64,000 nt of DNA. It comes from Marinitoga piezophila KA3 (GTDB lineage Bacteria; Thermotogota; Thermotogae; Petrotogales; Petrotogaceae). The position numbers and the translations under genes are program-made. How positions within the stretch are numbered: the first letter of the stretch is position 1; each line of letters starts with the position of its first letter. Where the stretch lies: NCBI RefSeq assembly GCF_000255135.1, contig NC_016751.1:868001-932000 (forward strand), read 5' to 3'. Below the pieces are notes generated by a model. It was not told where the DNA came from. It ran no database searches and saw nothing but the letters and a program-made list of their open reading frames with translations. This document shows, piece by piece, positions 43,189 through 63,044 of the stretch.

Positions 43189-43206
43189 CATTTAGGAGGA
43201 CATAGT

Positions 43207-45124: not shown

Positions 45125-46701
45125 TGAAAGGATTTAAAATTTTTGTAAAAAACAACAAGTGGAATATAATTATTCTAACAGTAATTACAATGTTGATGGT
45201 TTTTGTATCACTGTATGTTTCAAAATACACAAAAATCTTCTTTGATGAAGGATTTGTGAATAACAATATTTCAATAATAAAAGAAAGTATTTTTCTCCTT
45301 ATGGGATTATATATAGGATTATTTTTCCTGAATTTGATACAGAACTATGAATCAGTCAAATTTCTATATAACGGAATGCTTGCAATAAGAAAGGAAATAT
45401 TTAAGAAAGTTTTGAAAACCGATTATAATTATTTTGTAAATAATCCAACAGGAAAAATATGGGGAGAAATTTATACACCGCCTAATAGAGTTGGTATATT
45501 TTATACATCATTAATTTTTTTACCAGCTGACATTGTAGAAGCATTTGTATATACATATATAATCTATAAAGCAAGTATTGTCGGTGGTATAATACTTTCA
45601 TTATTTATTCCTTTTTTAATTTTGATAAGTTATTATACAGGAAAGAAAATAAGAAAATACGAACAGAAGATGCTTGATTCATATAGAGCGATGATGGGAA
45701 ATGCAATGGATATATTATCAATGGCTAAAATAATAAAGACCAATAATAACGACGATTATTTTTTAAATATATTTAAAAAGAATCATGAAGATATGAATAA
45801 CGCAGCAATAAGCACCAATGTTTTGACTACATTATGGGAAAATATAATATTAATAGTAACCGCATTATCACCATTAATTATAATATATTATGGAAATACA
45901 CATATGTCTTCGTTTAAGCTTACTCAGGGTGAATTAATTGTAATATATATTTTCTCTCCATTATTCTTTAATTCATACAAGAAAATATACAAAAAATTTC
46001 TCGATTTCTATGGCGTAAAGCCATATATAAAAACAATTGAAGAACATTTGAGTTTGGAAGATGAAAAACTCGGTGAAAATAAGTTAAATAAGGGAAATTT
46101 AGAAATTCATAACTTTGAATATAATTATGGAAATAAAAAGGTAAAAATCCCTGATATAAAAGTAAATAAAGGAGAAAAGATTTTAATTCTTGGTGAAAGT
46201 GGAAGAGGGAAAAGCACAATGTTTAATGCAATAATTGGAATATTAAAAGATTATAATGGAACGATAAAAATAGGAAATAAAGATATTAAAAACATTGATA
46301 TAGAGGATTTGAGAAAAAAGGTAAAACTTGTTCATCAAGAAGGATATGTATTTAATGGAACGTTAAAAGAAAATATTTTAATGGAATTGAATAATATTTC
46401 TGAAGATGAATATAAGAAGATTTTGAAAATATTGAAATTAGAAAAATTGGAAAAAGAAAAAAATGGAATAATAAATAAGGATAAGATATCAGGTGGGGAA
46501 AAAACAAGGATAAATCTTGCCCAGGTTTTGTTAAGAAAACCAGAAATATTACTTTTAGACGAAACTCTCTCTTCCGTTGATGAAGAAATGGAAAAAGAAA
46601 TACTTCAGGAAATAATAAAAGCATATCCTGATATGACAATATTAATGATAACGCACAGAAAAAGTATAGCGAATTTTTTTGATAAAATAATAGAGTTGTA
46701 A
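45124..46701 (+). CDS. Cassette A ABC exporter (half-transporter)
   Basis: The 525-aa protein has six membrane helices (residues 15-295) and a nucleotide-binding domain with Walker A GESGRGKST, signature ISGGEKTRINLAQ and Walker B EILLLDETLSSVD. There is no C39 peptidase domain, so leader removal must be done by another protein. It presumably exports the matured peptide of cassette A, and it may also protect the producer. Confidence 0.88.
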   Translation: MKGFKIFVKNNKWNIIILTVITMLMVFVSLYVSKYTKIFFDEGFVNNNISIIKESIFLLMGLYIGLFFLNLIQNYESVKFLYNGMLAIRKEIFKKVLKTDYNYFVNNPTGKIWGEIYTPPNRVGIFYTSLIFLPADIVEAFVYTYIIYKASIVGGIILSLFIPFLILISYYTGKKIRKYEQKMLDSYRAMMGNAMDILSMAKIIKTNNNDDYFLNIFKKNHEDMNNAAISTNVLTTLWENIILIVTALSPLIIIYYGNTHMSSFKLTQGELIVIYIFSPLFFNSYKKIYKKFLDFYGVKPYIKTIEEHLSLEDEKLGENKLNKGNLEIHNFEYNYGNKKVKIPDIKVNKGEKILILGESGRGKSTMFNAIIGILKDYNGTIKIGNKDIKNIDIEDLRKKVKLVHQEGYVFNGTLKENILMELNNISEDEYKKILKILKLEKLEKEKNGIINKDKISGGEKTRINLAQVLLRKPEILLLDETLSSVDEEMEKEILQEIIKAYPDMTILMITHRKSIANFFDKIIEL

Positions 46702-46734
46702 AATTTTATAGAATAATAATTTCATAAAATAATC

Positions 46735-46760
46735 AAATGAGGCGAAAGCCTCATTTTTTT
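46735..46760 (+). terminator. Terminator after cassette A
   Basis: AAATGAGGC-GAAA-GCCTCATTT followed by T residues is a strong hairpin with a GNRA tetraloop. The same hairpin stands at 56424-56445, each time right before a copy of the ATPase/nuclease-like gene. Confidence 0.85.
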
Positions 46761-46796
46761 TGATATGGTATAATTGAAGGGTAGGAGGTGGAAGTG

Positions 46797-48320
46797 ATGA
46801 GGATGTTTTGTACATCAGGACCAGTTGATAAGAAAACATGCTATTATGTGGAAAGACCGGATATAATGGAAGAAGCGCTTAATCATATAGAAAACTGGAG
46901 ATACTTTACAGTATCTGCACCAAGACAGAGTGGGAAAACCACGTTGTTGAGGGATATTGTAGAAAAGATAAAAGATAAATACCTAACGATATTTATTTCA
47001 TTTGAAAGTTATGGAGAAAAAGATAAAGAAGATTTTCTTGAAACATTAGTGATGGATATAGTTGATGATATTGAATATAGATATAATGAAAAAATAGAAT
47101 TACAAATCCCCAAAAATATAGATAATATAAGAATATTACTAAAAGAATTATATAAAAAATTTGGAAGAGAGATAATTTTAATGATAGATGAATTTGAAAG
47201 ATTAAATGAGGAGATAATAAATGAATTTTTACATGTAATAAGAAGTGTATATCATAAAAAGGAAATATATAAACTCCGAAGTGTAGTATTAATCAGTGTA
47301 AGCTATTTAAGCGGGATATTAGAAGACAACGCAAGTCCATTTAATATAGCAGAACATATGGAAGTACCATACTTTACAAAAGAACAGGTATATGACTTAC
47401 TCTCACAACACGAAAAAGAAACAGGACAATTATTCGATGAAAAAGTAAAAGAATTAATATGGCATAACGCAGCAGGGCAACCTGGACTAACCAATGGTCT
47501 TGCATATGATTTAGTAGCAAAAAAAGCAAAAGGAAAAAAGATAATAACAGAAAAGCATTTTGAAAAAACATTATATGACTATATAAAAAAATACATAGAC
47601 AAAAATATGGAAAATATAATATCAAAAGCACACGAAGAAAAAGAAATAGTAATGCAGATACTATTTGAACCAGAAAGCGTTGAATTTGATATAAGTGATG
47701 AAAGAATAAAATTTCTGTATTTACATGGAGTAATAGATGATTGTGAAGGGAAATGTTGTGTAAAAGTACCGTTATACTACAAAAAATTATATAATCATTT
47801 TAAGCCAAAAATAAACGGAGAAAAAGATTACATAATAAACATATATGAAAATCTATCAAAATACTTTACAAAAGAAGGAAAATTAAAAATAAACGAATTA
47901 ATGAAAAAATACATAGAATACATAAACAAAAGAGGAGCGGTAATGTTCAAAGGAAAGAAACTATATGAAGGAGTATATCAATATAATCTTGATATATTCT
48001 TGAGCACATATATGGAAGAATTGGGAGGAGAAGTATTAACGGAGGTAGAAGTAGGAGGAGGAAGAATAGACTTATTGGTAAGATATAAAGAAGAAAAATA
48101 TTTAATAGAAATAAAAAGGAATCCTGGTCCGAGAAAATTTCAACTGGCAAAAAAACAATTAGTAGAATATTTAAAAAGAAGTGGCTTAAAAGAAGGCTGG
48201 CTTGTGATATATTCAGAAGCAATAGAGGATTTCAAACATGAAATAGAAGAAATAGATGGAGTAAAAATCAATGTATGGTTTATAAAAACGAACTTTGAAA
48301 GTCCATCGAAAGTGAATTAA
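46797..48320 (+). CDS. AAA-type ATPase with C-terminal PD-(D/E)XK nuclease-like domain, copy 1
   Basis: From ATG 46797 (MRMFCTSGPVDKKTCYYVER; GGAGGTG upstream) the product is 507 aa. Walker A is SAPRQSGKTTLL (40-51) and Walker B REIILMIDEFERL. The C-terminus (about 400-480) has GGGRIDLLVRYKEEKYLIEIKR, i.e. the D...ExK core of PD-(D/E)XK nucleases. Such fused proteins are common, multi-copy and of unknown role in thermophiles and Bacteroidetes; mobility or defence have been suggested. It has its own -10 TATAAT at 46769-46774, just behind the cassette A terminator. Confidence 0.8.
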   Translation: MRMFCTSGPVDKKTCYYVERPDIMEEALNHIENWRYFTVSAPRQSGKTTLLRDIVEKIKDKYLTIFISFESYGEKDKEDFLETLVMDIVDDIEYRYNEKIELQIPKNIDNIRILLKELYKKFGREIILMIDEFERLNEEIINEFLHVIRSVYHKKEIYKLRSVVLISVSYLSGILEDNASPFNIAEHMEVPYFTKEQVYDLLSQHEKETGQLFDEKVKELIWHNAAGQPGLTNGLAYDLVAKKAKGKKIITEKHFEKTLYDYIKKYIDKNMENIISKAHEEKEIVMQILFEPESVEFDISDERIKFLYLHGVIDDCEGKCCVKVPLYYKKLYNHFKPKINGEKDYIINIYENLSKYFTKEGKLKINELMKKYIEYINKRGAVMFKGKKLYEGVYQYNLDIFLSTYMEELGGEVLTEVEVGGGRIDLLVRYKEEKYLIEIKRNPGPRKFQLAKKQLVEYLKRSGLKEGWLVIYSEAIEDFKHEIEEIDGVKINVWFIKTNFESPSKVN

Positions 48321-48361
48321 GATAATTCTATTAAAATAGTTCTTCCAGATTTCTGAAAGGG

Positions 48362-48867
48362 TTATTTTAAAAACCTTTCAATAATATCATCAATCAAAAC
48401 TCTTTCATCATCTTCAAAAGAGTAATAACCAAGAGCAACACATTTTTGACCGAGACCATATTTAATTGCAAAATCACGAACCTTACCTTTTGGATAAGGA
48501 GTAATGGGCCATTTAATATCGTATCGAACGCAATTTCTTAAAAACACATCAAATATTCTCATTTCCTCATCACTGAGCTTAAAATAATTAAAAACAAACT
48601 CCTTAAAGTTCTTTGTTTTCTTAAAAAGCTCAGTGATGAGTTTTTTCTTGCTAAATAAAATGGTGAAATATTATATTCCGAATCTTCAACATCTTCAGAA
48701 TTCAATAATCTTCTTTCAGCTTTCTTCAAATCAAAATCACTTATCATAACATTAAAAAAAATACATCTTCTCATAATTAGCAGAGAAGAATTTAATAATC
48801 TTATCCTCCCTTGCTAATTCTCTTAACATTGTTGTTGTCGAAATAACTTTATTTGCATAAAATAAAC
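48362..48867 (-). pseudogene. Cassette B regulator-like gene remnant
   Basis: This is a damaged third copy of the regulator at 58053-59480. The last 130 codons are present but broken by loss of one T in a run (six T at 48641-48646, seven in copies A and C). Upstream, near 48815, a large internal deletion joins the segment to the Thr-repeat region (CTTAACATTGTTGTTGTCG). The start is lost. Cassette B therefore lacks a working local regulator and might be run by the copy at 58053. Confidence 0.85.
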
Positions 48868-48883
48868 CTTCTAAAATATTGAT

Positions 48884-48941
48884 AAATAGCGAATTTTATT
48901 TTTAAAAAAACACTTGCAAGTCGTGTTAGAAAGGATAAAAT
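48884..48941 (+). promoter_or_regulatory. Cassette B upstream box and promoter
   Basis: AAATAGCGAATTTT (48884-48897) lies 16 nt before a promoter TTGCAA (48914-48919) - 16 nt - TAAAAT (48936-48941). The same arrangement (box, 17 nt, TTGAAA-16-TATAAT) stands before the cassette C mini-gene. Downstream here there is only a 13-codon ORF (48961-49002) after AAGGTGA, so the original signal-peptide gene seems to have been lost or replaced. Confidence 0.6.
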
Positions 48942-49693: not shown

Positions 49694-49800
49694 AAGAAAA
49701 AATCATGTAAGGAAACAAAAAAATAATAACCTTATTTGTTATTTTACTACTAATGTCAGCTAACATTGTTTTTGCTGGAAATATGATGAATATAAAATAG
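49694..49800 (+). pseudogene. Decayed signal-peptide mini-gene in cassette B
   Basis: After AAGGA an open frame reads NKKIITLFVILLLMSANIVF then AGNMMNIK and a stop at 49798-49800. This is a textbook export signal with AxA-like cleavage region, but no start codon fits (AAC stands where ATG is expected, right after a stop). An internal ATG at 49753 would leave out most of the signal. I read it as a broken relative of the mini-genes in cassettes A and C. Confidence 0.5.
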
Positions 49801-49954
49801 ATTTAACCAATCTTCGTATCCAAATTGAGATTTTTAAGTGAAAAGGTTTGAGGTTAATAGTAAATCGAATGAATTGATATTACATATCTAATAAATTATG
49901 TATATCTTTTTATTTATCCCCCGGGCTAAATAATAATTTATTGGAGGAGATATA

Positions 49955-50110
49955 ATGAAAATAGTTAATGATGAAAAAAATGAAAGTTTAAAATGTTTCG
50001 TTGTTTGTTCTGGTACATGTATTGTTATTTGCACTTTGGATACTCTTACACCGCTTTTAGATGCGATGGGTGTAGCAACATATGCTAAAGCAGAACAAAC
50101 ATCATTATAA
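49955..50110 (+). CDS. Cassette B sactipeptide-like precursor 1
   Basis: A 51-aa ORF starts at ATG 49955 after TTGGAGGAGA. The leader is short (MKIVNDEKNESLK). The core CFVVCSGTCIVIC has Cys14, 18, 22 and 26, spaced C-x3-C-x3-C-x3-C, followed by TLDTLTPLLDAMGVATYAKA. Four evenly spaced Cys ahead of a hydrophobic, Gly/Ala/Thr-rich C-terminal half is the layout of sactibiotics such as thuricin CD, where Cys sulfurs bond to alpha-carbons in the C-terminal half. It pairs with precursor 2, 17 nt downstream. Confidence 0.85.
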   Translation: MKIVNDEKNESLKCFVVCSGTCIVICTLDTLTPLLDAMGVATYAKAEQTSL

Positions 50111-50127
50111 AAGAGGAGTTGATTTCT

Positions 50128-50283
50128 ATGAAAATAATTAATGATAATAACAAAGATGAAGGGTTATTATGTATTATAGGATGTGGAGTAATTTGCAGCA
50201 TAGGATGCCAAACTGATTCCCCAATAATTCCTGTAATGGATGCAGCTGCGGGAATTTCTGGGAATATTGCTGCTATGGATTAA
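50128..50283 (+). CDS. Cassette B sactipeptide-like precursor 2
   Basis: A 51-aa ORF starts at ATG 50128 after AAGAGGAG. The leader MKIINDNNKDEG matches that of precursor 1. The core LLCIIGCGVICSIGCQTD has Cys15, 19, 23 and 27 with the same C-x3-C spacing; CIIGC is close to the CVIGC of thuricin CD alpha as I remember it. The C-terminal half (SPIIPVMDAAAGISGNIAAM) offers acceptor residues. Two precursors with two radical SAM genes directly downstream suggest a two-peptide product. Confidence 0.85.
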   Translation: MKIINDNNKDEGLLCIIGCGVICSIGCQTDSPIIPVMDAAAGISGNIAAMD

Positions 50284-50311
50284 GATACTAAATTTTAATA
50301 ATATTTTATAT

Positions 50312-50330
50312 TGCCTGGGGGCTTTTTAAA
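50312..50330 (+). terminator. Weak stem-loop after the cassette B precursors
   Basis: GCC-TGGG-GGC followed by TTTTT lies 30 nt after precursor 2 and before the radical SAM genes. It is short and could only be a leaky attenuator, in the same place as the stem-loops of cassettes A and C. Confidence 0.35.
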
Positions 50331-50384
50331 AAACAATTTGATTATTCATATAATATGAAAACAATATACACGAGAGGTGAAATA

Positions 50385-51776
50385 ATGAAAGGATTTTTTT
50401 TTAAAACAAAAAAAGGAAATGAATATTTTTATGATGATATTACAGGAAATGTTATATTTGTAAAGTCAAAAAATGATATTAAAAAATTACAAAGTAATTA
50501 TCGAAAAAAGTATTTTTATGATAATAAAAAAATTAATGTTAAAAACATTAAAAATTATATCAAAAACAAAGGAAGTAAAGAATTATTTTTTATTGTTACT
50601 GAAGATTGTAATCTTAGATGTAAATATTGTGCATATTCTGGAGAATATTCTAACATGAGGACACATAATAATGTATATATGGATTATAATATTGCTAAAA
50701 AAGCTATTGATAAATATTTTTCTGATATTTCGAATACACAAAAAATAAACCCATATTTTATTCCAGCTATTGGTTTTTATGGTGGAGAACCTTTAATTAA
50801 TTTTGATTTGATAAAAAAAACAATAATGTATATAAAAAATAAAAAATACAAATGTCATTTTACTATCACAACAAATGGAACTATATTAAACGATGAAATA
50901 ATAAAGTTTCTTGCTGAAAATGAAGTTTCTCTTGCTTTTAGTCTTAATGGTTTTAAAGAAGAACATGATAGATTACGAGTATTTTCAAATCAAAATGGAA
51001 CATTTGAAATTGTGTATAATAATTTATTAAAAATAAAAGAAAAGTATCCTTTCTATTATAAAAAATATTGTTCTATAATTGCCTGTTATGATTATGGAAC
51101 AGATTTATTTAAAATGAAGGATTTTTTTGACAATAGTAATTTATCAGAAAGACTTATCAGACTTAATATGATAGGAAGTTCTTATACTAATTGGTATAAC
51201 CAATACTCAAAAGAAAAAAAAGAAAAATTCTTTTCTCAAATGAGAAAACTCAAAAATTTATACTTCCATAAAATTAAAAAAAATGAAAATGATAAATTTT
51301 TATCTTTATTATTTGGGTTATCGTATTTTGCGATACTCAATAGAAATATAAATGTAAATTTATATGAAATTAGACCTTCTTTTCTTCCGTTTACAGGAAC
51401 ATGTGTTCCAGGAGAAAAAATAGCAATTTCACCTTCTGGAGATTTACATTGCTGTGAAAAAATTAATTATGATTTCCCTATTGGCAATGTTGAAAACTGG
51501 TTGGATTATTCAAAAATAGAAGAAATCGTGAAAAAATACAATAAAAAGTTAAAATCAGAATGTTTAATATGTCCTGTGTCAAGATTATGTCCTCTTTGTT
51601 TTGCACTATTAGCTGGAAATGGAGAATTTAAAAAAGATCCACCGGATATTTGTGAAAATGTCAAAGAAGGAATAAAAAAATCTTTCGAAGAGATTTGGAA
51701 TTTACTGGAGGAAGGAGTTAATATATTTGATTTAATAAAGTTTTCAAAATATAAACAATGTGGGGTGTATATATGA
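50385..51776 (+). CDS. Cassette B radical SAM/SPASM maturase 1
   Basis: From ATG 50385 (MKGFFFKTKKGNEYFYDDIT; GAGAGGTGA upstream, preferred to an ATG at 50355 with no ribosome site) the product is 463 aa. The first 65 residues could be a precursor-binding domain. Cys75, 79 and 82 form CNLRCKYC, followed by GFYGGEPLINFD. C-terminal auxiliary-cluster Cys are CVPGEK, LHCCEK, CLICPVSRLCPLC and DICEN. This is the sactionine-forming type of maturase by layout. It overlaps the second maturase by 4 nt (ATGA). Confidence 0.9.
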   Translation: MKGFFFKTKKGNEYFYDDITGNVIFVKSKNDIKKLQSNYRKKYFYDNKKINVKNIKNYIKNKGSKELFFIVTEDCNLRCKYCAYSGEYSNMRTHNNVYMDYNIAKKAIDKYFSDISNTQKINPYFIPAIGFYGGEPLINFDLIKKTIMYIKNKKYKCHFTITTNGTILNDEIIKFLAENEVSLAFSLNGFKEEHDRLRVFSNQNGTFEIVYNNLLKIKEKYPFYYKKYCSIIACYDYGTDLFKMKDFFDNSNLSERLIRLNMIGSSYTNWYNQYSKEKKEKFFSQMRKLKNLYFHKIKKNENDKFLSLLFGLSYFAILNRNINVNLYEIRPSFLPFTGTCVPGEKIAISPSGDLHCCEKINYDFPIGNVENWLDYSKIEEIVKKYNKKLKSECLICPVSRLCPLCFALLAGNGEFKKDPPDICENVKEGIKKSFEEIWNLLEEGVNIFDLIKFSKYKQCGVYI

Positions 51777-52999
51777 AGAATAAATATTTTAAATTAAACA
51801 AAGATTATATTTTAGTTGTCGGAAAAGAAAATAAAGGTTTAATTTACGACTTAAAAGATGGAAATATGATAGAATTAGAGAAAACTTGGACTGACGTTTT
51901 AGTACAGCTAGAAAATGGCACTAAAGTTGAAAATGTAAAATCATCCTATACATATGAAGTCATAGAAAAAATCAAAGAAGAAACAATGGGAGAATTTTAT
52001 GATAATTTTATATATGAAGAGAAAAATCGTAAAGGTACGATTTTACCTCCACAAGGTATGCAGAAATTACCACCTATAATTCAAAAATGCTATATCCAAA
52101 TACCATCAGATTGTGATTTAAATTGCAAATTTTGTTTTTCCTTGAAAAGTTATCCGTGTTTTGTATGTACCAAAAGTTCAAATATAAATTCTATTGATTC
52201 AAAAATATATAAAACATTTCTAAATAAATTGTTAAATTTAAATGTTCATAACATAATATTTTATGGAGGGAATCCTCTTCCTTATATAAATACAGAAGAC
52301 TTATTAGATATATGTTTAAATAATGAAAAAAGACCAGAAATCTGGATTTTACTTCATTGGATGCATATTAGAGATAATAAAATATTAGAATTAGAAAAAG
52401 AAATATACAAAAAAATAAATTTCTATATCATATTTTCTACAAGTGATATCTTTGATAAAGAAAACGAAAAAAATATTTCTTCATTTATGGAAACGTTAAA
52501 TTATATAAAAAAATATACGAAAAATTTTGAATTAACTTTTGTACAGGATAGTGATGAAATACCCGAATTTGAAATTAAAGATACGCTGGAAATTATAATA
52601 AATAAGTATAAAACAAAAATATATATTTCAGAACTTTTAGATGAAAATAATAAGAGTTTTATGAATCATTCATTTATGAGAATAACTCCCGAAATTTTCT
52701 GGAATAATTATTATTATCATCCGTGTTTGAATGGAACCATAACCTTGAATGCAGAAGGAAAAATATTGCCCTGCCCATCAATGGAAAATGAAATAATTGG
52801 AGATATTACAGAAAATGAAAATATTCTTAAAGAAATATTTTTAGAAAACAAAATAGATAAATATTGGGAATTACATCTTGGAAAAATAGATAAATGTAAA
52901 GAATGTATATATAGATTTGGTTGTTTTGAATGTAGAGCAATAGAAACAAAAATAACTAAAAAATTAAATGGAAAAATATTATGTAAAGAAGGTGATTAA
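51773..52999 (+). CDS. Cassette B radical SAM/SPASM maturase 2
   Basis: From ATG 51773 (MKNKYFKLNKDYILVVGKEN; GGGGTG upstream) the product is 408 aa. Residues 1-90 look like a PqqD-like precursor-recognition domain (YDLKDGNMIELEKTWTDVLV). Cys114, 118 and 121 form CDLNCKFC, followed by FYGGNPLPY, where Asn replaces the usual Glu of GGEP. The C-terminus has CLNG, LPCPS and CKECIYRFGCFEC. It is only distantly similar to maturase 1, so each may serve one precursor, as TrnC and TrnD do for thuricin CD. Confidence 0.88.
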   Translation: MKNKYFKLNKDYILVVGKENKGLIYDLKDGNMIELEKTWTDVLVQLENGTKVENVKSSYTYEVIEKIKEETMGEFYDNFIYEEKNRKGTILPPQGMQKLPPIIQKCYIQIPSDCDLNCKFCFSLKSYPCFVCTKSSNINSIDSKIYKTFLNKLLNLNVHNIIFYGGNPLPYINTEDLLDICLNNEKRPEIWILLHWMHIRDNKILELEKEIYKKINFYIIFSTSDIFDKENEKNISSFMETLNYIKKYTKNFELTFVQDSDEIPEFEIKDTLEIIINKYKTKIYISELLDENNKSFMNHSFMRITPEIFWNNYYYHPCLNGTITLNAEGKILPCPSMENEIIGDITENENILKEIFLENKIDKYWELHLGKIDKCKECIYRFGCFECRAIETKITKKLNGKILCKEGD

Positions 53000-53170
53000 A
53001 TGGAGTTAAGTGTATTTCTTATCATTATTACTGCTGTGATAATATATTATATTTTCAGAATAAAAATGGAATATGAAGAAGGGACACTGAAATATTATTT
53101 AAAAAGTCAGTTGAAACATTTTATAGTTATTATAATTATATTAACATTATTCTGGATAATACTAAAATAA
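53000..53170 (+). CDS. Small two-helix membrane protein, candidate immunity peptide
   Basis: A 56-aa ORF begins at the base after the maturase 2 stop (TAAATG). It has two hydrophobic helices (residues 4-19, FLIIITAVIIYYIF, and 41-55, FIVIIIILTLFWIIL) joined by a charged loop (RIKMEYEEGTLKYYLKSQLK). Small membrane proteins in this position often protect the producer from its own bacteriocin. No homologue is recognised. Confidence 0.65.
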   Translation: MELSVFLIIITAVIIYYIFRIKMEYEEGTLKYYLKSQLKHFIVIIIILTLFWIILK

Positions 53171-53185
53171 GAGGAGAGGATATAT

Positions 53186-54097
53186 ATGGAAATAATAAAA
53201 TTCAAAGGAGTAAAGAAGAGATATTATAGCGGGACAGAGGCATTAAAAGACATACATTTTTCAGTAAAAAGAGGAGAAATAATAGGTATAATAGGTCCCA
53301 ATGGCGCCGGGAAAACCACATTAATAAAATTAATACTTGGATTATTAAAACCGACAGAAGGCGAAATAGAAATCTTTGGAAAAAACATAAAAAACATAAA
53401 AAAATTAGAAAGGAATAAAATAGGTATGGTGCTTGATACACCGGGATTATATGATGATTTAACAATAGAAGAGAACATAAAATTCTGGCAAAAAGTATAT
53501 AAGAAGAACAATAATGAAATTTGGAATTTAATTGATAGATGGAAATTAACAGAAAAGAAAAAAACATTGATAAAAAATCTTTCGGCAGGAATGAGGCAAA
53601 AGGTTGCAATATTAAATTCATTATCGCATGATCCTGAATTAGTAATAATGGATGAACCCACATCAAACCTTGATCCTGAAGCCAGGAGAGATATAGTGGA
53701 TTTTTTGAAAGGTTTTAAAGGAACTGATAAATCATTGATAATAACATCACATGATTTATTTGATATAGAAAGGATCTGTACGAGAATAATATTTCTCAGG
53801 AAAGGGAAAGTAATAGTTGATGGAACATTAAAAGAAATGAAAAAAGCATTAAAAATAGAAGATAAAGTAAAAATTATAGTTAGTCAAAAAATACCTGAAA
53901 GAATAATAAGAGAAAACAACATAAATCTATCTGATGAAAAAACAACAATTATACCAGAAGAAAAGCTTGATAAAATATTGGAAATATTCAGAAAAGAAGG
54001 AATTGATGTAAAAAGAATAGAAGACGAAAAAACAACACTTGAAGACATGTATATCTCAATTGTCAGGGAGGATGAAGAAAATGTGGGCTATAATTGA
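53186..54097 (+). CDS. Cassette B ABC transporter ATP-binding protein
   Basis: The 303-aa protein has Walker A GPNGAGKTTL, signature LSAGMRQKVAIL and Walker B LVIMDEPTSNLDP, followed by an 80-aa C-terminal extension as in bacteriocin-immunity ABC ATPases (BcrA/CcmA type). The permease gene starts inside its 3' end. By layout it matches the TrnF/TrnG pair of thuricin CD. Confidence 0.92.
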   Translation: MEIIKFKGVKKRYYSGTEALKDIHFSVKRGEIIGIIGPNGAGKTTLIKLILGLLKPTEGEIEIFGKNIKNIKKLERNKIGMVLDTPGLYDDLTIEENIKFWQKVYKKNNNEIWNLIDRWKLTEKKKTLIKNLSAGMRQKVAILNSLSHDPELVIMDEPTSNLDPEARRDIVDFLKGFKGTDKSLIITSHDLFDIERICTRIIFLRKGKVIVDGTLKEMKKALKIEDKVKIIVSQKIPERIIRENNINLSDEKTTIIPEEKLDKILEIFRKEGIDVKRIEDEKTTLEDMYISIVREDEENVGYN

Positions 54098-54713
54098 AAA
54101 AGAATTAAAAACATTTTTTCGTAAAAAGAAAGAAAGAAATTTATTTTTTATAGCAATGATAATATGGGCAGTAACAATACATTCAGGAAAAAAACATATA
54201 TACAATCCATATTTTACTGTATGTGTATTAGTTTCTTTTTTTATTCCATATATATTTGGATGGATAGCTTTTAATGAGGAAAAAAAGAATAAGAATCTTT
54301 TATATTTATTATCTTCCCCACTTGATATAAAAGAGGTGTTTGCAGGTAAAATCATAGCTTTATTTATATTTACAATAGGTATAGAAATTTTACTTATAGC
54401 AATAGGGATGATAATAAATCCATTTGCTGCAGGGATATATCCAACAGTTTCTGATTTAATTACATTAATTCTTACAATACCTGTAGGAATGACAGTAATA
54501 AGTGCCATTATGGGAATTAGTCTTATGATTCTGGATAATCCATTTATAATAAGAATAGTACTATTTTTATTAATTTATTTTTTTGCTTTTAAAGGCGAAA
54601 AAATAAAAGAAGTACTTATAATGTCTGAATGGTATTACATACTATTGGGAATATTACTAATAATAGGAATAATATACTTAACACCACTTATTCTTAACAA
54701 AGAAAAAATTTAG
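54081..54713 (+). CDS. Cassette B ABC transporter permease
   Basis: From ATG 54081 (MWAIIEKELKTFFRKKKERN; AGGGAGG 9 nt upstream) the product is 210 aa with six predicted helices, typical of ABC-2-type permeases that pair with the ATPase just upstream (17-nt overlap). Function: export of, or protection from, the peptide. Confidence 0.85.
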   Translation: MWAIIEKELKTFFRKKKERNLFFIAMIIWAVTIHSGKKHIYNPYFTVCVLVSFFIPYIFGWIAFNEEKKNKNLLYLLSSPLDIKEVFAGKIIALFIFTIGIEILLIAIGMIINPFAAGIYPTVSDLITLILTIPVGMTVISAIMGISLMILDNPFIIRIVLFLLIYFFAFKGEKIKEVLIMSEWYYILLGILLIIGIIYLTPLILNKEKI

Positions 54714-54742
54714 AAATGAATTTGATAATCAGGAGGAAAGAA

Positions 54743-56398
54743 ATGGAAAACATAAAATTTCTCTATAAATACACAAAAGGACATAGAGGAAGATTGACGA
54801 TATCGATGATAATGATGATAATATTATCGTATGTATCAATAATGCCAGCAAAATACTACAAAGAAGCGATGGATAATGGGATACTGACAGGTGATTATGA
54901 ATATTTAAAAAAGGTTTGTATGACATTAATAGTGATATACGTATTAAAAAGTATATTGAATTATATAACCTCAAAAATATTTATAATCAGCAGTCAGAGT
55001 ATAATATTTGAAATAAAAAAGGATCTATTAAAAAGGGTATTAAAATTACCAATGACTTTTTTTGAAGGAAAAGAAACGGGATATATAATGGCAAGAGTTG
55101 GAGAAACTGATAAATTACAGATATTATTTTCACAACAAACATTTAAAATATTGATAAGTATAATAGAATTTATAATAGTGTTATATATATTGATGAAATA
55201 TAATATAAAACTGACATTAATCGCGCTGGCAATAATGCCGTTATATTATATAGTAACAAGTAAATTTATGGGAAATATATCAAAAATTTCAATGGAATTG
55301 ATGGAAAAAGGCGCAAAAATGAGTGGGAAATTAGAGGAAAGTATAAGTGGAATAGAAGAAGTTAAAAATTTAAATATAGAAGAGAAAGAAACCAAAAAGA
55401 ATATAGATTATAACAAAGAATTTGTAAAAACAGCGATAAAACAGGGAATATTATACTCAATAGGAATGGAATTGTTAACATTAATAAGTGCAATAGCAGG
55501 TGTAATAGTACTATTATATGCTGGAAAAGACATAATTTTTTCAGGATTTACAATAGGAGGATATATAGCCTTTGCAAACTATATAGGAAAATTATATGCA
55601 CCTGTAATACAGCTAGGAACAACAACATTAACAATACAGCCAGCAGTGAATTCATTAAAAAGAGTAAAGGAAATAATGGAGGAATTAACAGAAGAAGAAA
55701 AAAATATAAATGGTGAAGAATTGACAGAAGAGATAAAAAAAATAAAGATGGAAGATATAGAATTTTCATATGATGGAAAAACAAAAGTATTGAAAGGTAT
55801 AAATCTGGAAGTAAAAAAAGGGGAAAAAATAATAATAAAAGGACCAAATGGGTCAGGAAAAACAACATTGATGAAATTGCTATTGGGGATATATGATGGA
55901 TATAAAGGAAGAATAATAATAAATGAAAAAAATCAAAAAGAAATAGATATAAAATCATTGAGAGAAAGGTTTGGAATAGTATCGCAGAAAATATTCCTAT
56001 TTAACGATACAATAAAGAATAACATAATGTATTCATCAAAAGAGATAAAAGAAGAAAAATACAAAGAAATATTGAAGAAAAGCAATTTGGAAAAATTAAT
56101 AGAAAAATTTCCATTGAAGGATAATCATATGATAACAAATAATGGGCAAAATTTATCAGGAGGACAGAAACAATTAATTGCAATAGCTCGAGCACTGGCA
56201 AAAGGAGCAGATATATTCATATTCGATGAAGCAACAGTGCATATAGATAAAGAAACAAAAGAAACAATAAAAAGGATAATAAAAGAGGAATTAAAAGATA
56301 AAATATGTTTTATAATAACTCACGAAGATAGTTTTGATGAGATAGGAGATAAAATAATAAAATTAAAAAACATTGAAGAAGTTTCTATGTTTGAATAA
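54743..56398 (+). CDS. Cassette B ABC exporter (half-transporter)
   Basis: From ATG 54743 (MENIKFLYKYTKGHRGRLTI; AGGAGG upstream) the product is 551 aa: six membrane helices (about 20-295) then a nucleotide-binding domain with GPNGSGKTTL, LSGGQKQLIAIARAL and IFIFDEATVHID. There is no C39 peptidase domain. With the ATPase/permease pair this gives cassette B two transport systems, one probably for export and one for immunity. Confidence 0.88.
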   Translation: MENIKFLYKYTKGHRGRLTISMIMMIILSYVSIMPAKYYKEAMDNGILTGDYEYLKKVCMTLIVIYVLKSILNYITSKIFIISSQSIIFEIKKDLLKRVLKLPMTFFEGKETGYIMARVGETDKLQILFSQQTFKILISIIEFIIVLYILMKYNIKLTLIALAIMPLYYIVTSKFMGNISKISMELMEKGAKMSGKLEESISGIEEVKNLNIEEKETKKNIDYNKEFVKTAIKQGILYSIGMELLTLISAIAGVIVLLYAGKDIIFSGFTIGGYIAFANYIGKLYAPVIQLGTTTLTIQPAVNSLKRVKEIMEELTEEEKNINGEELTEEIKKIKMEDIEFSYDGKTKVLKGINLEVKKGEKIIIKGPNGSGKTTLMKLLLGIYDGYKGRIIINEKNQKEIDIKSLRERFGIVSQKIFLFNDTIKNNIMYSSKEIKEEKYKEILKKSNLEKLIEKFPLKDNHMITNNGQNLSGGQKQLIAIARALAKGADIFIFDEATVHIDKETKETIKRIIKEELKDKICFIITHEDSFDEIGDKIIKLKNIEEVSMFE

Positions 56399-56419
56399 GT
56401 AAAGAAAATTGCTGGAATT

Positions 56420-58040
56420 AATCAAATGAGGCGAAAGCCTCATTTTATTTTGATATGGTATAATTGAAGAATAGGAGGTGGAAGTGATGAGAATGTTTTG
56501 TACATCAGGACCTGTTGATAAGAAAACATGTTATTATGTGGAAAGACCGGATATAATGGAAGAAGCGCTTGATCATATAGAAAACTGGAGATATTTTACA
56601 GTGTCTGCACCGAGACAGAGCGGGAAAACCACATTATTAAGAGATATTGTAGAAAAAATAAAAGATAAGTATTTAACAATATTTATCTCATTTGAAAGTT
56701 ATGGAGAAAAAGATAAAGAAGATTTTATTGAAACATTAGTGATGGATATAATTGATGATATTGAATATAGATATAATGAAAAAATAGAATTACAAATCCC
56801 CAAAAATATAGATAATATAAGAATATTACTAAAAGAATTATATAAAAAATTTGGAAGAGAGATAATTTTAATGATAGATGAATTTGAAAGATTAAATGAG
56901 GAGATAATAAATGAATTTTTACATGTAATAAGAAGTGTATATCATAAAAAGGAAATATATAAACTCCGAAGTGTAGTATTAATCAGTGTAAGCTATTTAA
57001 GCGGGATATTAGAAGACAACGCAAGTCCATTTAATATAGCAGAACATATGGAAGTACCATACTTTACAAAAGAACAGGTATATGACTTACTCTCACAACA
57101 CGAAAAAGAAACAGGACAATTATTCGATGAAAAAGTAAAAGAATTAATATGGCATAACGCAGCAGGGCAACCTGGACTAACCAATGGTCTTGCATATGAT
57201 TTAGTAGCAAAAAAAGCAAAAGGAAAAAAGATAATAACAGAAAAGCATTTTGAAAAAACATTATATGACTATATAAAAAAATACATAGACAAAAATATGG
57301 AAAATATAATATCAAAAGCACACGAAGAAAAAGAAATAGTAATGCAGATACTATTTGAACCAGAAAGCGTTGAATTTGATATAAGTGATGAAAGAATAAA
57401 ATTTCTGTATTTACATGGAGTAATAGATGATTGTGAAGGGAAATGTTGTGTAAAAGTACCGTTATACTACAAAAAATTATATAATCATTTTAAGCCAAAA
57501 ATAAACGGAGAAAAAGATTACATAATAAACATATATGAAAATCTATCAAAATACTTTACAAAAGAAGGAAAATTAAAAATAAACGAATTAATGAAAAAAT
57601 ACATAGAATACATAAACAAAAGAGGAGCGGTAATGTTCAAAGGAAAGAAACTATATGAAGGAGTATATCAATATAATCTTGATATATTCTTGAGCACATA
57701 TATGGAAGAATTGGGAGGAGAAGTATTAACGGAGGTAGAAGTAGGAGGAGGAAGAATAGACTTATTGGTAAGATATAAAGAAGAAAAATATTTAATAGAA
57801 ATAAAAAGGAATCCTGGTCCGAGAAAATTTCAACTGGCAAAAAAACAATTAGTAGAATATTTAAAAAGAAGTGGCTTAAAAGAAGGCTGGCTTGTGATAT
57901 ATTCAGAAGCAATAGAGGATTTCAAACATGAAATAGAAGAAATAGATGGAGTAAAAATCAATGTATGGTTTATAAAAACGAATTTTGAAAGTCCATCGAA
58001 AGTGAATTAAGATAATTCTATTAAAATAGTTCTTCCAGAA
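56420..58040 (+). repeat. 1.6-kb direct repeat, copy 2 (terminator + ATPase gene)
   Basis: Second copy of the 46731-48350 segment, including the GAAA-loop terminator (56424-56445), the TATAAT promoter and the whole gene. Differences are almost confined to the first 330 nt. Confidence 0.9.
56487..58010 (+). CDS. AAA-type ATPase with C-terminal PD-(D/E)XK nuclease-like domain, copy 2
   Basis: This 507-aa protein differs from copy 1 at only three positions that I can see (Asp for Asn in EALDHIENW, Ile for Leu in DFIETLV, Ile for Val in MDIIDD), all within the first 100 residues. Walker A, Walker B and the D...EIK core are unchanged. It again follows a peptide-export ABC gene and faces a regulator gene tail to tail. 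Confidence 0.8.
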   Translation: MRMFCTSGPVDKKTCYYVERPDIMEEALDHIENWRYFTVSAPRQSGKTTLLRDIVEKIKDKYLTIFISFESYGEKDKEDFIETLVMDIIDDIEYRYNEKIELQIPKNIDNIRILLKELYKKFGREIILMIDEFERLNEEIINEFLHVIRSVYHKKEIYKLRSVVLISVSYLSGILEDNASPFNIAEHMEVPYFTKEQVYDLLSQHEKETGQLFDEKVKELIWHNAAGQPGLTNGLAYDLVAKKAKGKKIITEKHFEKTLYDYIKKYIDKNMENIISKAHEEKEIVMQILFEPESVEFDISDERIKFLYLHGVIDDCEGKCCVKVPLYYKKLYNHFKPKINGEKDYIINIYENLSKYFTKEGKLKINELMKKYIEYINKRGAVMFKGKKLYEGVYQYNLDIFLSTYMEELGGEVLTEVEVGGGRIDLLVRYKEEKYLIEIKRNPGPRKFQLAKKQLVEYLKRSGLKEGWLVIYSEAIEDFKHEIEEIDGVKINVWFIKTNFESPSKVN

Positions 58041-58061
58041 ATTCTGGAAGAACTATTTTAA
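58021..58061. terminator. 20-bp-arm hairpin between ATPase copy 2 and regulator C
   Basis: Identical in its 41 bases to the hairpin at 40890-40930. It lies between two convergent genes and can stop both. Confidence 0.8.
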
Positions 58062-59480
58062 AAATCCCTCAATAATATCATCAATCAAAACTCTTTCATC
58101 ATCTTCAAAAGAGTAATAACCAAGAGCAACACGCTTATAACCTAAACCATATTTAAGAGCAAAATCACGAACTTTACCTTTTGGATAAGGAGTAACGGGC
58201 CATTTAATATCGTATCGAACGCAATTTCTTAAAAACACATCAAAAACTTTCATTTCCTCATCTCTGAGCTTAAAATAATTAAAAACAAATTCCTTAAAGT
58301 TCTTTGGTTTCTTAAAAAGCTCAGTGATGAGTTTTTTTCTTGCTAAATAAAATGGTGAAATATTATATTCCGAATCTTCAACATCTTCAGAATTCAATAA
58401 TCTTCTTTCAGCTTTCTTCAAATCAAAATCACTCATCATGACGTTAAAGAAATACATCTTTTCATAATTAGCAGAGAAGAATTTAATGATTTTATCTTTA
58501 TTACCTTCAAAAATCAATTTTAAAATATGACTCTTTGTAAAAAATGGTTTTTCTATTAATGCTGTATATGTTGAAAAGAATAATATTGGAATATTTACTT
58601 CTTTTTGTTTTCTAAATTTAATAGTATTTTCTTTAAAATTCTTCTTTATTTCTTTTTCAAATTCTTTTGAATAAAAGCTTCTATTAAATTTCTTATCGAG
58701 ATTTACTTCAGGAAAAATCTTTTTTAGTTCATTTACTATATTACATATTTCAGAAATACGCATATCATTATTAATCTTTTTTACTTCAAAAATAGTATCA
58801 AACCAGTTATAGGTATAATTTAAATCTTCGAAATAATAGCCAATATAATATTCAAGTAAATTAGCTGCAATCAAATCTTTCTCTTTACCTTCATTCATTA
58901 TCCACCATGCAGCATTATTTAAACCAGAACATATCATAGTTGGATGTGGAAATTTCTTTGCAAGATTATATCCTTCTATAAATAATTTATATGCTTTATT
59001 ATAATTTTCTTTTTTTATTTCTTTTCGCGCTTTTGAATATTTTATTATTGATTTTTCAACGTAACTTTCTTCGTAATTTTTACTCCATAATCGTATACAA
59101 TCATAATTTTCTTCATATATTGAAACAAGATATTTTAATCCTGGAAAAATTATATTTCTTGCATTTTCAGAAAGATTTTTAATACCTTTTTTTAATTTCA
59201 TATATTCTTTTTTTGATTCCTCAAATTTATTTTGTTTTAATAATATATCTATTTTTTCAAATCTTGCTAATTCTTTTAACATTGTTGTTGTTGTTGTTGA
59301 AATAACTTTATTTGCATAAAATAAAGCTTTGTCTAAATCTTCATTCCATATTGATTTTAATAATAGCAGATAGAATTTCAAAGATTCATCAATAATATAT
59401 GGATAAATGTAATTAATAACCGTTCTTGAAAAATAACCATATTCAACTATATTCAGAATATCTTTTATAGAAAAATCCAT
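58053..59480 (-). CDS. Cassette C helical-repeat regulator-like protein (intact copy)
   Basis: From ATG 59480 (MDFSIKDILNIVEYGYFSRT; GGAGGTTAAAA upstream) the product is 475 aa. Residues 30-260 are TPR-like paired helices with a Thr run (62-66, STTTTTMLKELARFEK) and NKAYKLFIEGYNLAKKFPHP. The last 100 residues end in KVRDFALKYGLGYKRVALGY, which could be a helix-turn-helix. TPR plus DNA-binding proteins encoded beside a secreted mini-peptide recall RRNPP-type peptide-sensing regulators, though there the DNA-binding part is N-terminal. No family match is known to me; regulator is an inference from context. Two damaged copies and one scrap of this gene lie in the window. Confidence 0.7.
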   Translation of the reverse strand: MDFSIKDILNIVEYGYFSRTVINYIYPYIIDESLKFYLLLLKSIWNEDLDKALFYANKVISTTTTTMLKELARFEKIDILLKQNKFEESKKEYMKLKKGIKNLSENARNIIFPGLKYLVSIYEENYDCIRLWSKNYEESYVEKSIIKYSKARKEIKKENYNKAYKLFIEGYNLAKKFPHPTMICSGLNNAAWWIMNEGKEKDLIAANLLEYYIGYYFEDLNYTYNWFDTIFEVKKINNDMRISEICNIVNELKKIFPEVNLDKKFNRSFYSKEFEKEIKKNFKENTIKFRKQKEVNIPILFFSTYTALIEKPFFTKSHILKLIFEGNKDKIIKFFSANYEKMYFFNVMMSDFDLKKAERRLLNSEDVEDSEYNISPFYLARKKLITELFKKPKNFKEFVFNYFKLRDEEMKVFDVFLRNCVRYDIKWPVTPYPKGKVRDFALKYGLGYKRVALGYYSFEDDERVLIDDIIEGFLK

Positions 59481-59704
59481 TTTTAACCTCCAGGACACTG
59501 TGTTTTAATTATGTTGTTACTATCGAATTTTTAAAACCCGGGGACTTTGTTCTTAACATTTGTTTGTAACATAAACACATAAATAAAAAATCGCCAGAAT
59601 CCTGAATATAAAAAATTTTAAAAAAATTTGGTAAGTTTGTGAGAAAATCGTGTGTTACATGAATTAATTAAACTGTAACGAAAATCAACTTCTGAAACAC
59701 TGAT

Positions 59705-59763
59705 AAATAGCGGATTTTTATTTTAAAAAAAACACTTGAAAGTCAAATGGAAACTGGTATAAT
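59705..59763 (+). promoter_or_regulatory. Cassette C upstream box and promoter
   Basis: AAATAGCGGATTTT (59705-59718) lies 17 nt before TTGAAA (59736-59741) - 16 nt - TATAAT (59758-59763), which is 20 nt before the GTG of the mini-gene. The rest of the 303-nt divergent gap has no other clear feature except an ACCCGGGGA segment near 59536. Confidence 0.6.
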
Positions 59764-59783
59764 TTTTCACCGGAGGTGAAATA

Positions 59784-59909
59784 GTGAAAAAAATCATTTT
59801 AATAATAGGCATAATGATAATTTTAAATTCAATAATCTTTTCTGGAGATGAGGTGGATAAAAAATATTCAACTCGTTCTTTAAATCCTCAAATTGAATTT
59901 TTTAAATAA
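59784..59909 (+). CDS. Cassette C signal-peptide mini-gene (candidate signalling peptide, GTG start)
   Basis: A 41-aa product starts at GTG 59784 after CGGAGGTGA. Residues 1-19 form an export signal (KKIILIIGIMIILNSIIFS); the mature part GDEVDKKYSTRSLNPQIEFF ends nearly like that of cassette A (NPQI shared, acidic/aromatic end). Divergent from the helical-repeat regulator gene, it is the best candidate for an intact signal/receptor pair. Confidence 0.7.
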   Translation: MKKIILIIGIMIILNSIIFSGDEVDKKYSTRSLNPQIEFFK

Positions 59910-59932
59910 TAAACAATCTATTTTTCTCTTTT

Positions 59933-60000
59933 TATATCTGCATAGATATTATATCAAAACTTTAAATCTTTTCAGCCGGCTGGATTATTCTGGTGCCAGA
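59933..60000 (+). promoter_or_regulatory. Conserved RiPP-cassette intergenic element, copy C
   Basis: The block has the ATATCT-GCAT-AGATAT hairpin, TATTATATCAAAA, TTTAAAT, the CAGCCGGCTG palindrome (59973-59982) and GATTATTCTGGTGCCAGA. Its first 50 nt match copy A and its last 28 nt match copy B, so it joins the features of both. It lies between the mini-gene and precursor C1. Confidence 0.7.
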
Positions 60001-60053
60001 AACTTAATTACTATTATAACTTATTAAATATAAAAGAGCAAGGAGGTTATAAA

Positions 60054-60176
60054 ATGAAAACCATTAAAAAATTTAAAATTTTAGAAATAGGAACATACAA
60101 TGTTGAAGAACCTAATTTTTGTGGATTTTGTTCATTTTGTAGTCCAATATGGGGTAAAAAAGTATTAACTAAATAA
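60054..60176 (+). CDS. Cassette C precursor peptide C1
   Basis: A 40-aa ORF starts at ATG 60054 after AAGGAGG. The leader is KIKFKILEIGTYNVEEP-like (MKTIKKFKILEIGTYNVEEP) and the core NFCGFCSFCSPIWGKKVLTK has Cys23, 26 and 29, each preceded by Phe, i.e. three F-C-x units. The paralogue C2 at 62674 keeps the leader and the F-C-x pattern. I know no described RiPP class with this core. Confidence 0.8.
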   Translation: MKTIKKFKILEIGTYNVEEPNFCGFCSFCSPIWGKKVLTK

Positions 60177-60184
60177 TTTCTTTT

Positions 60185-60198
60185 ACCTGGATCCAGGT
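60185..60198 (+). terminator. Palindrome after precursor C1
   Basis: ACCTGGATCCAGGT is a 14-bp perfect palindrome able to form a small hairpin, 8 nt after the precursor stop. Its place matches the stem-loop of cassette A. Confidence 0.4.
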
Positions 60199-60259
60199 TT
60201 AAAAGATATCCCCAAAATATATAGATTTTAATTGTTTAAAAAAGATAAAAATATTAGGA

Positions 60260-61042
60260 GGTGATTATAATAAAATATTACACATCATTTTATAATATAT
60301 ATACTCCAATAAATGATAATATAGTCATTTTTAATACATTAACAAGAAATTTGATTTCTATGGCAACAAAAAATCTCATGATAAGTTGAGATTATTAAAT
60401 GATACGGGAAGTTTTGATATTGTTTTTAATAATTTTGTATTATTAACTAAATACTTTGAAGGTGAAATAACTCTTAGAATGAATATAAATGAAAATAATA
60501 TAAATAATGCAAAAGAATTTTTAAAATATTTAAAAAAAGAAAAAATCAATAAAAAAATATCAAGTTTATCATTTTCACCTATATTTTCATCCCAAAAAGA
60601 AATAAGAAGGTATGGACATGAAAGAAAAATAAATTTAGAATTAGAAAGCAAAATTGCGAATTTATATCTTCAAGCGGCAAAATTCGGCTTTAAAATAGAT
60701 AAAGAATTTGTTGGAGGCCCATGTTCTGTGTCTCTTGATTTATCTTTCGCTGTTGATGAAAATTTAAATATATATTCATGTCCTGGAACTTTTTACGAAG
60801 TTAAAGAAGGATATATAGATGAAAATAGTAATTTAAAAATTAATAATTCTAAGTGGTATGAAAATATAAGTTATGAACCTGAATGCATAGAAAATTGCAA
60901 TTATGCACCAATTTGTTATGGAGGATGTAGATGGATGGGTGGAAATAATAAAAAAGGTGTTTGTAAAAAAGCCTATCTAGATAAAAATATTCAAACGCTG
61001 ATAAAAGCTTATGTTATAAGCAATTATCCTCTGGAGGTATAA
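60260..61042 (+). pseudogene. Cassette C radical SAM/SPASM enzyme, core deleted
   Basis: After TTAGGAGG an N-terminal frame (KYYTSFYNIYTPINDNIVIF) runs to a stop near 60388; the start is GTG 60260 or ATA 60269. In another frame KSHDKLRLLNDTGSFDIVFN begins at about 60369 and runs to 61042 (SPASM half, with CSVSLD, SCPGTF, CIENCNYAPICYGGC and CKKAY). The join removes the stretch that should hold CxxxCxxC and GGEP, roughly 100 or more residues, so no radical SAM cluster can form. The remaining 218-aa ORF from ATG 60386 could still be made and might bind the peptide. Confidence 0.85.
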
Positions 61043-61045
61043 CAA

Positions 61046-61933
61046 ATGGAAGAATTATTAAAAGTAGAAAAAATAAGCAAAACATATCCAAATGGAGTAA
61101 GAGCAAATAATAATATAAATTTTAGTTTAAAAACAAATGAAATTATTGGATTAATTGGTCCAAATGGAGCAGGAAAAACAACATTAATAAGACAGATTTT
61201 AAAATTATTGAAACCAACTTCAGGAAACATTATTATAAATGATAGAGTGAAAAAAATTGCATATGTACCGCAATTACCGATTTTCTTTCCATCACTTACA
61301 GTTGAAGAAAGTATAAAAATACCTTTAAAATTAGAAGGGTTAAATTCGCATGAAGTAAGTTATAAAGTAGAAAAAATACTTTATGAAACAGGATTAGATA
61401 AAATAAAAAAAGAATACAATTATACACTTTCAGGTGGTCAAAAAAAACTAATTATGATTGCATTAGCTTTTTCACAGGAACCTGATGTGGTAATATTGGA
61501 TGAACCCACTTCAATGGTTGATATAATAAACAAAGAAAAAATATGGGATTTAATAAAAAAATACAGAAAGGGAAAAGGAATATTACTAGCAAGTCATGAT
61601 ATGAATGAAATAAAAAATTTGGCTGATAAAGTAATTATAATCACAAATGGTGAAATTATATATAAAGGTAAGATTGAAGAAATAAATACAAAAGTAAAAA
61701 CACCTGTTGAATTAAATATATCAGTTAAAAATATAGAAAAAATAGAAAATCTTATTAGAAGAGAAAATATTGTATATAATTCAAATGAACATAATTATTC
61801 TTTATTCTTTTCTGAGTTATCAGAAGCTTTGAGTTTTCTTGAAAAAATAAAAAAAGATAATTATATAAAATATTTAAAAATTGAATACCCATCCTTTGAA
61901 AAAGGAGTGTATGAACTTGTTAAAAATATTTAA
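61046..61933 (+). CDS. Cassette C ABC transporter ATP-binding protein
   Basis: The 295-aa protein has Walker A GPNGAGKTTL, signature LSGGQKKLIMIAL and Walker B VVILDEPTSMVD, with a C-terminal extension of about 75 residues. It starts 3 nt after the broken radical SAM gene and overlaps the permease by 23 nt. It is the partner of the next gene. Confidence 0.92.
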   Translation: MEELLKVEKISKTYPNGVRANNNINFSLKTNEIIGLIGPNGAGKTTLIRQILKLLKPTSGNIIINDRVKKIAYVPQLPIFFPSLTVEESIKIPLKLEGLNSHEVSYKVEKILYETGLDKIKKEYNYTLSGGQKKLIMIALAFSQEPDVVILDEPTSMVDIINKEKIWDLIKKYRKGKGILLASHDMNEIKNLADKVIIITNGEIIYKGKIEEINTKVKTPVELNISVKNIEKIENLIRRENIVYNSNEHNYSLFFSELSEALSFLEKIKKDNYIKYLKIEYPSFEKGVYELVKNI

Positions 61934-62657: not shown

Positions 62658-62673
62658 TAAGGAGGTGAAATTG

Positions 62674-62799
62674 ATGAAAAATAAGAATAAAAAAATTAAA
62701 ATATTAGAAATCGGTAGTTATAATATTGAAGAACCAAACTTCTGTAAGTTTTGTAAATTTTGTAGTCCAATTGGTGGAAAAATAGTTTTAGTCCCCTAA
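62674..62799 (+). CDS. Cassette C precursor peptide C2
   Basis: A 41-aa ORF starts at ATG 62674 after AAGGAGGTGA. The leader KIKILEIGSYNIEEP is nearly that of C1, and the core NFCKFCKFCSPIGGKIVLVP keeps three F-C-x units (Cys24, 27, 30) and SPI. Between the two cores the residue after each Cys changes (G,S,S to K,K,S), as expected of a variable part on a fixed frame. It lies at the far end of the cassette, after the transporter genes. Confidence 0.8.
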   Translation: MKNKNKKIKILEIGSYNIEEPNFCKFCKFCSPIGGKIVLVP

Positions 62800-63000: not shown

Positions 63001-63044
63001 TGTTATTTTTTTATAAAAATGTGATATAATTAAGAAAAGTTAAT

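Follow-up and report, generated by a model that had tools for sequence, protein, structure and literature searches.

A probable huazacin-type sactipeptide operon with two differing four-cysteine precursors in Marinitoga piezophila, and a TPR/exported-peptide module of the Thermotogota

A 64,000-nucleotide stretch of the Marinitoga piezophila KA3 genome (NC_016751.1, positions 868,001 to 932,000, forward strand; referred to as the window, with its own numbering) was analyzed for a putative peptide cluster at 49955-56398. This segment is very probably an intact sactipeptide operon of the huazacin (thuricin Z) type, comprising two precursor genes, genes for two radical S-adenosylmethionine (SAM)/SPASM enzymes (C and D), a small membrane protein and three ATP-binding cassette (ABC) transporter components, all eight of which are open in this genome (Table 1). 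An earlier note made from the letters of the window had listed these parts at the same positions and had read them as a two-precursor, two-radical-SAM sactipeptide-type cluster in a thermotogote. The parts list held, and the type was borne out by NCBIfam and by a maturase tree, in which C groups with enzymes of ribosomally synthesized and post-translationally modified peptides (RiPPs).

The precursors and enzymes of the operon

Both precursors begin with MKI[VI]ND and carry a C-x3-C-x3-C-x3-C motif; they were the only open reading frames (ORFs, ≥25 residues) with this spacing in the window, and none was found in 30 first-order Markov shuffles of it. They share 33% sequence identity. The listed ORF of precursor 2 starts at a TTG codon (50119) and is three residues longer than the version starting with ATG (50128). 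Precursor 1 scored 69.6 bits against the NCBIfam model NF037972 (huazacin family RiPP; cutoff 35), far above the cutoff, which argues for a huazacin-type product. In most aligned family members the last cysteine opens a C-x2-D-x3-P-x2-D motif, placing an aspartate at +10, and precursor 1 follows this exactly. In huazacin, which is identical to thuricin Z, Cys4/8/12/16 are bridged to His38/Tyr34/Thr30/Asp26 (PMC8172795); the four invariant cysteines and the aspartate at +10, spaced as in the Cys16-Asp26 bridge, thus also point to this type.

Pfam and NCBIfam back the radical SAM and ABC assignments. Enzyme C matched PF04055 with 66 bits and contains the radical SAM and SPASM cysteines. Enzyme D reached 26.8 against the Pfam radical SAM model, just under the cutoff of 29.5, but the assignment fits its motif, its SPASM cysteines and its predicted fold; the alignment shows that CxxxCxxC and the SPASM cysteines are retained in D and that a further invariant CxxC follows eight residues after the radical SAM motif. 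The AlphaFold model of D (pLDDT 63) has a predicted N-terminal strand-helix arrangement resembling a RiPP recognition element, and a Foldseek search with it ranked the RiPP maturases SuiB and TigE first, in favor of the huazacin-type reading. The reading is further supported by a tree of 44 C-type enzymes (short search), in which all 11 with a D-like neighbor formed one group with an SH-aLRT value of 95. This group covers Thermotogota, Bacillota, a TA06 bacterium and an archaeon (Methanothrix). The archaeal two-radical-SAM cluster (L049:7457-12084) also contains genes for an ABC exporter and a 1337-residue subtilase-like protein, and a candidate precursor (...DACWCDWCNCSGG...) is located at 7457-7636.

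Comparison with near orthologues gave ratios of nonsynonymous to synonymous substitution rates (dN/dS) of 0.19-0.30 for precursor 1 and 0.12-0.14 for precursor 2, which is conserved in G039 and G040. Across both precursors and both enzymes the values were 0.12-0.30, indicating purifying selection; these genes are therefore maintained as proteins, in agreement with the huazacin-type assignment. The 56-residue membrane protein (dN/dS 0.31-0.33) is conserved within the genus, and a comparable small membrane ORF occupies the same place in a more distant locus (L016). If D starts at 51773, its start overlaps the stop of C by 4 nt (ATGA).

The cluster family was found in 8 of 103 Thermotogota genomes (four genera), so that the precursors recur in related genomes; in the genus of the window, related loci are present in G039, G040 and G042. 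Among 397 sampled Bacillales genomes it was found in one, the Aeribacillus genome on which the sample was centered. The host proposed in the earlier note is consistent with this distribution, since the cluster and a tetratricopeptide repeat (TPR) protein family are shared within the phylum group. In the literature, one mined sactipeptide cluster from Thermosipho has been presented (PMC4289311). The gene order, described below for a plasmid of Ruminococcus albus 7, and the TPR and peptide genes located upstream in four related loci (L012, L014, L015 and L016) also favor the huazacin-type reading.

Table 1. Features of the operon and its immediate surroundings (window positions).
Feature	Position	Strand	Properties and basis
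Precursor 1 (huaA-like)	49955..50110	+	51 aa, ATG start; MKIVNDEKNESLK / CFVVCSGTCIVIC...; NF037972 match
Precursor 2	50128..50283	+	51 aa, ATG start; differing four-Cys peptide, leader similar to that of precursor 1
Radical SAM/SPASM maturase C (radical SAM 1)	50388..51776, alternative start 50355	+	CNLRCKYC; PF04055
Partner radical SAM/SPASM enzyme D (radical SAM 2)	51773..52999, alternative start 51758	+	CDLNCKFC; alignment, model
Two-helix membrane protein	53000..53170	+	56 aa; possible immunity or export helper; conserved in genus
ABC transporter ATPase	53186..54097	+	PF00005
ABC-2 type permease	about 54081..54713	+	Weak ABC2_membrane matches below cutoff; position after ATPase
ABC exporter, fused transmembrane and ATPase parts	54716..56398, alternative start 54743	+	PF00664 and PF00005
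Decayed TPR gene (3' and 5' pieces)	48330..48931	-	blastn to L145 of the same genome and to the 58053-59498 paralogue
Promoter remnant TTGCAAGTCGTGTTAGAA	48914	+	Pattern match, beside decayed TPR gene
Broken copy of exported-peptide gene	49717..49835	+	89% nucleotide identity to the intact L145 copy of the same genome
Direct repeat, left copy (2.08 kb)	46727..48805		AAA/PD-(D/E)XK gene 46788-48320 and TPR 3' end; 97.2% to right copy
Direct repeat, right copy	56416..58496		AAA/PD-(D/E)XK gene 56478-58010 and TPR 3' end; blastn

Decay of the surroundings and expression in this strain

Several observations weigh against the huazacin-type assignment or against a functional operon. Precursor 2 scored only 18.1 bits against NF037972, under the cutoff, and contains one extra residue between the last cysteine and the aspartate, which shifts the latter to +11. 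An alpha-carbon linkage is not readable from sequence, and a leader protease gene is absent from the operon. In the tree, grouping with the enzymes of the R. albus plasmid pRUMAL03 served as proxy for authentic ThzC/ThzD; a search of plasmids, genome contigs and the 397 Bacillales genomes yielded no sequences of ThzC/D or TrnC/D. Expression is not assured because two sister clusters are broken, one (G039) by a frameshifted C gene and a transposase region inserted into the exporter gene, the other (G042) by loss of most of C, and because the local regulator is decayed.

The TPR and exported-peptide genes adjoining the operon are decayed in this strain and retained in sister genomes. A silent relic, i.e. 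an operon that ceased to be expressed in this strain when its regulatory module decayed, would fit these two broken genes and the frameshift or insertion sequences in sister clusters; we consider it rather unlikely, as all eight genes are open, those tested have low dN/dS values, and the promoter element described below also occurs in intact modules elsewhere in the genome, which could act in trans. The direct repeat brackets the cluster, and its AAA/PD-(D/E)XK gene occurs in five copies in the genome; the 97.2% identity of the flanking copies and this copy number suggest that the modules have been shuffled by recombination. Elsewhere in the window, 37211-37309 and 62911-63013 are inverted copies of approximately 100 bp (87% identical), one of which adjoins a transposase-like gene (36102-37397).

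Related systems and proposed maturation

The huazacin/thuricin Z cluster of Bacillus thuringiensis serovar huazhongensis encodes two radical SAM enzymes and ABC proteins alongside a pair of identical precursor genes (PMC8172795), and its peptide shares with the operon studied here the four cysteines at x3 spacing and the aspartate at +10. It differs in that its thz copies are identical whereas the M. piezophila precursors differ, in its host, and in the TPR/exported-peptide module to which sister genomes tie the thermotogote cluster. The earlier note had taken four rather than three evenly spaced cysteines as a new feature, a view that falls with this precedent. The closest annotated parallel found was plasmid pRUMAL03 of R. 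albus 7, with two precursor genes named 'huazacin family RiPP peptide' by NCBI and the same order of A, A, C, D, ABC ATPase and permease. Its precursors are however identical with uneven cysteine spacing, and the stretch shown has no separate ABC exporter by the permease and no TPR module was seen in it.

Thuricin CD (Trn-alpha/Trn-beta, TrnC/TrnD), which the earlier note had named as the nearest relative, was rejected in that role on the basis of cysteine number and of the NF037972 score of precursor 1. A system of its type, with peptides that act only jointly and enzymes descending from TrnC/TrnD rather than from ThzC/ThzD, would share with the operon the two radical SAM enzymes and the two differing Cys-rich precursors, unlike the thz copies. 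It is nevertheless improbable, as both precursors contain four cysteines instead of three (CX3CX3C), precursor 1 matches the huazacin family, and the gene order is that of the huazacin-family plasmid cluster. A ranthipeptide or other thioether peptide, with cysteines joined to beta or gamma carbons, is very improbable: although C scored best in NCBIfam against CcpM (TIGR04068, 240 bits), a Cys-rich peptide maturase family, and among solved structures came closest to the ranthipeptide enzyme CteB (5WGG), neither match exceeds a defining cutoff, and a huazacin-family precursor with the aspartate acceptor at +10 and a Cys block ahead of the acceptor block has the layout of a sactipeptide hairpin.

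For a huazacin-type operon, the following maturation can be proposed. The C-D pair would bind precursors 1 and 2 via their short leaders, and C, aided by D, would successively link each of the four N-terminal cysteines to a residue of the C-terminal half through its alpha-carbon. A two-enzyme complex has a precedent in TrnC/TrnD (PMC12093266), which is in favor of this reading, and the division of work between C and D may be similar by analogy. Each precursor would become a hairpin peptide that is 8 Da lighter and holds four nested thioether bridges; for precursor 1, analogy to thuricin Z (+10, +18, +26 and +34) predicts C26-D36, C22-V40, C18-A44 and C14-Q48. The peptides would be released by the ABC exporter. 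As a Pfam scan identified no C39 peptidase domain in the exporter, the leader is probably removed by a protease encoded elsewhere. Self-protection may be provided by the ABC pair and the 56-residue membrane protein, and inhibition of close relatives is the likely role. In sister genomes, the receptor-like TPR gene and the divergent exported-peptide gene upstream of the operon would probably form a cell-density switch, the local copy of which has decayed in M. piezophila KA3.

The TPR/exported-peptide module and its promoter element

In the four related loci for which the upstream region was available (L012, L014, L015 and L016), the cluster is preceded by a TPR-family gene in divergent orientation, and a 43-48 residue ORF with a Sec-type signal sequence lies between the two. 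Of 103 Thermotogota genomes, 59 carried the TPR family; the M. piezophila genome gave 17 matches, some of them fragments. No member was found in 246 and 249 genomes of two Bacillota orders (E ≤ 1e-8), a weak negative given that the search had no positive control. Upstream sequence was sufficient for 61 TPR genes, and a strict filter identified a divergent ORF for a 40-50 residue Sec-type peptide within 1.3 kb of 36 of them (0.08% in Markov-shuffled sequence); the actual distance was 170-370 nt. A relaxed filter with a shuffled rate of 15% added about eight ORFs judged by eye, including that at 59784 in the window and those of several distant genomes. The peptide tails differ, with ...NPQIQxEFSE in the genus of the window and ...ESW, ...EVW or ...VVEEVE in other genera of the family. 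On the divergent strand, a radical SAM gene was present within 7 kb of 28 of 56 TPR genes, compared with approximately 5% predicted from the density in this genome (34 radical SAM genes in 2.24 Mb). These counts are not independent because the loci are related.

TPR models matched 12 of 52 family members, and Cro/C1 helix-turn-helix (HTH) models matched 10 of 52 (best 4e-8); in the members in which its position was determined, the HTH was internal (about 309-360) and not N-terminal. The paralogue at 58053-59498 has no HTH segment. Structure prediction from window sequences only was poor (pLDDT 46), and a profile search of the PDB returned neither a hit under E 0.03 nor an RRNPPA entry. RRNPPA receptors (Rap, Rgg, NprR, PlcR, PrgX and AimR) are likewise TPR proteins with an adjoining gene for a Sec-type propeptide, and the tie to peptide clusters is reminiscent of Rgg/SHP in streptococci. 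Rgg, NprR, PlcR, PrgX and AimR have an N-terminal HTH followed by TPRs, and Rap has no HTH. The thermotogote module differs in its host, in the internal HTH and in the lack of a profile match to a solved RRNPPA receptor. Judged from sequence, it looks like an RRNPPA receptor-propeptide pair but fails the architecture of that family, and a signaling function can be proposed from this resemblance. The literature searched, with partial coverage, contained nothing on RRNPP-type signaling in Thermotogota, and the pairing of a receptor-like TPR gene with a tiny exported-peptide gene is seemingly undescribed.

Most peptide promoters share an element composed of TTGA[AC]A, directly followed by [AG][CT]CAT[AG]T and then a -10 box. 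The pattern CTTGMMARYCATRTNRGAAN{3,5}GTA occurred at six sites in the M. piezophila genome (reversed control: 0), five of which adjoin TPR genes or remnants and one of which precedes a radical SAM gene. A related pattern gave 33 sites in 21 genomes of the family (control: 0), 23 of them, by our own count, just upstream of TPR genes or fragments. Inspection of the other ten revealed four that precede an exported-peptide gene with a decayed or missing TPR gene, some that precede ABC transporter operons, and one at a coding start that may be due to chance. ABC transporter operons headed by the element without a TPR gene (L190, L191 and L194) are possible further regulon members.

Two further modules were observed in the window. 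That at 41599-46701 comprises a truncated TPR gene (- strand), an exported peptide (42811-42942), a 37-residue two-Cys peptide (43046-43159), a radical SAM/SPASM gene (43171-44340), a gene for a 264-residue protein and an ABC exporter gene. That at 58053-62799 comprises the TPR gene without HTH segment (- strand), an exported peptide (59784-59909), short Cys peptides (60054-60176 and 62665-62799), an ABC pair and a truncated radical SAM gene (60386-61042) without CxxxCxxC. Positions 42798-43016 and 59772-59982 are 72% identical over 224 nt; the conserved stretch reaches from the exported-peptide gene into the leader-coding part of the Cys peptide gene, contains the palindrome CAGCCGGCTG and gave no match in Rfam. 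Elsewhere in the same genome, a TPR module (L153:5995-13428) is followed by at least five repeated Cys-rich MKWIE... peptides and a radical SAM gene. In L159 and L160, TPR genes and an exported peptide are accompanied by two radical SAM genes and several Cys-rich peptides of the type MEFLN...; we presume that these loci may correspond to the TM1316-type locus of T. maritima. An FMN riboswitch (63042-63157, 120 bits, Rfam) lies near the end of the window.

From these data we lean, if only slightly, towards a peptide quorum-sensing system specific to Thermotogota, in which TPR (often TPR-HTH) receptors would each be paired with a divergent exported peptide, the element TTGA[AC]A[AG][CT]CATAT[GA] would precede the peptide gene and further target operons, and the modules would control radical SAM peptide and ABC clusters including the two-component huazacin-type pairs. 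It would represent a counterpart outside Bacillota of RRNPPA systems and of the radical SAM RiPPs controlled by Rgg/SHP in streptococci.

With this operon, the range of huazacin-type sactipeptides comes to include a deep-branching phylum of thermophiles. Its unusual points are the two differing four-Cys precursors and the host phylum; the variant may be stable to heat and lend itself to co-expression. By itself, the sactipeptide adds modestly to a known kind, and the regulatory context, with its paired receptor-like and peptide genes, weighs more and raises the interest of the finding. If the TPR/peptide pairs are indeed receptors and pheromones, Thermotogota would possess their own family of peptide quorum-sensing systems, linked to peptide clusters and represented by many paralogues in each genome, and the density-dependent behavior of these thermophiles would be directly testable with synthetic peptides.

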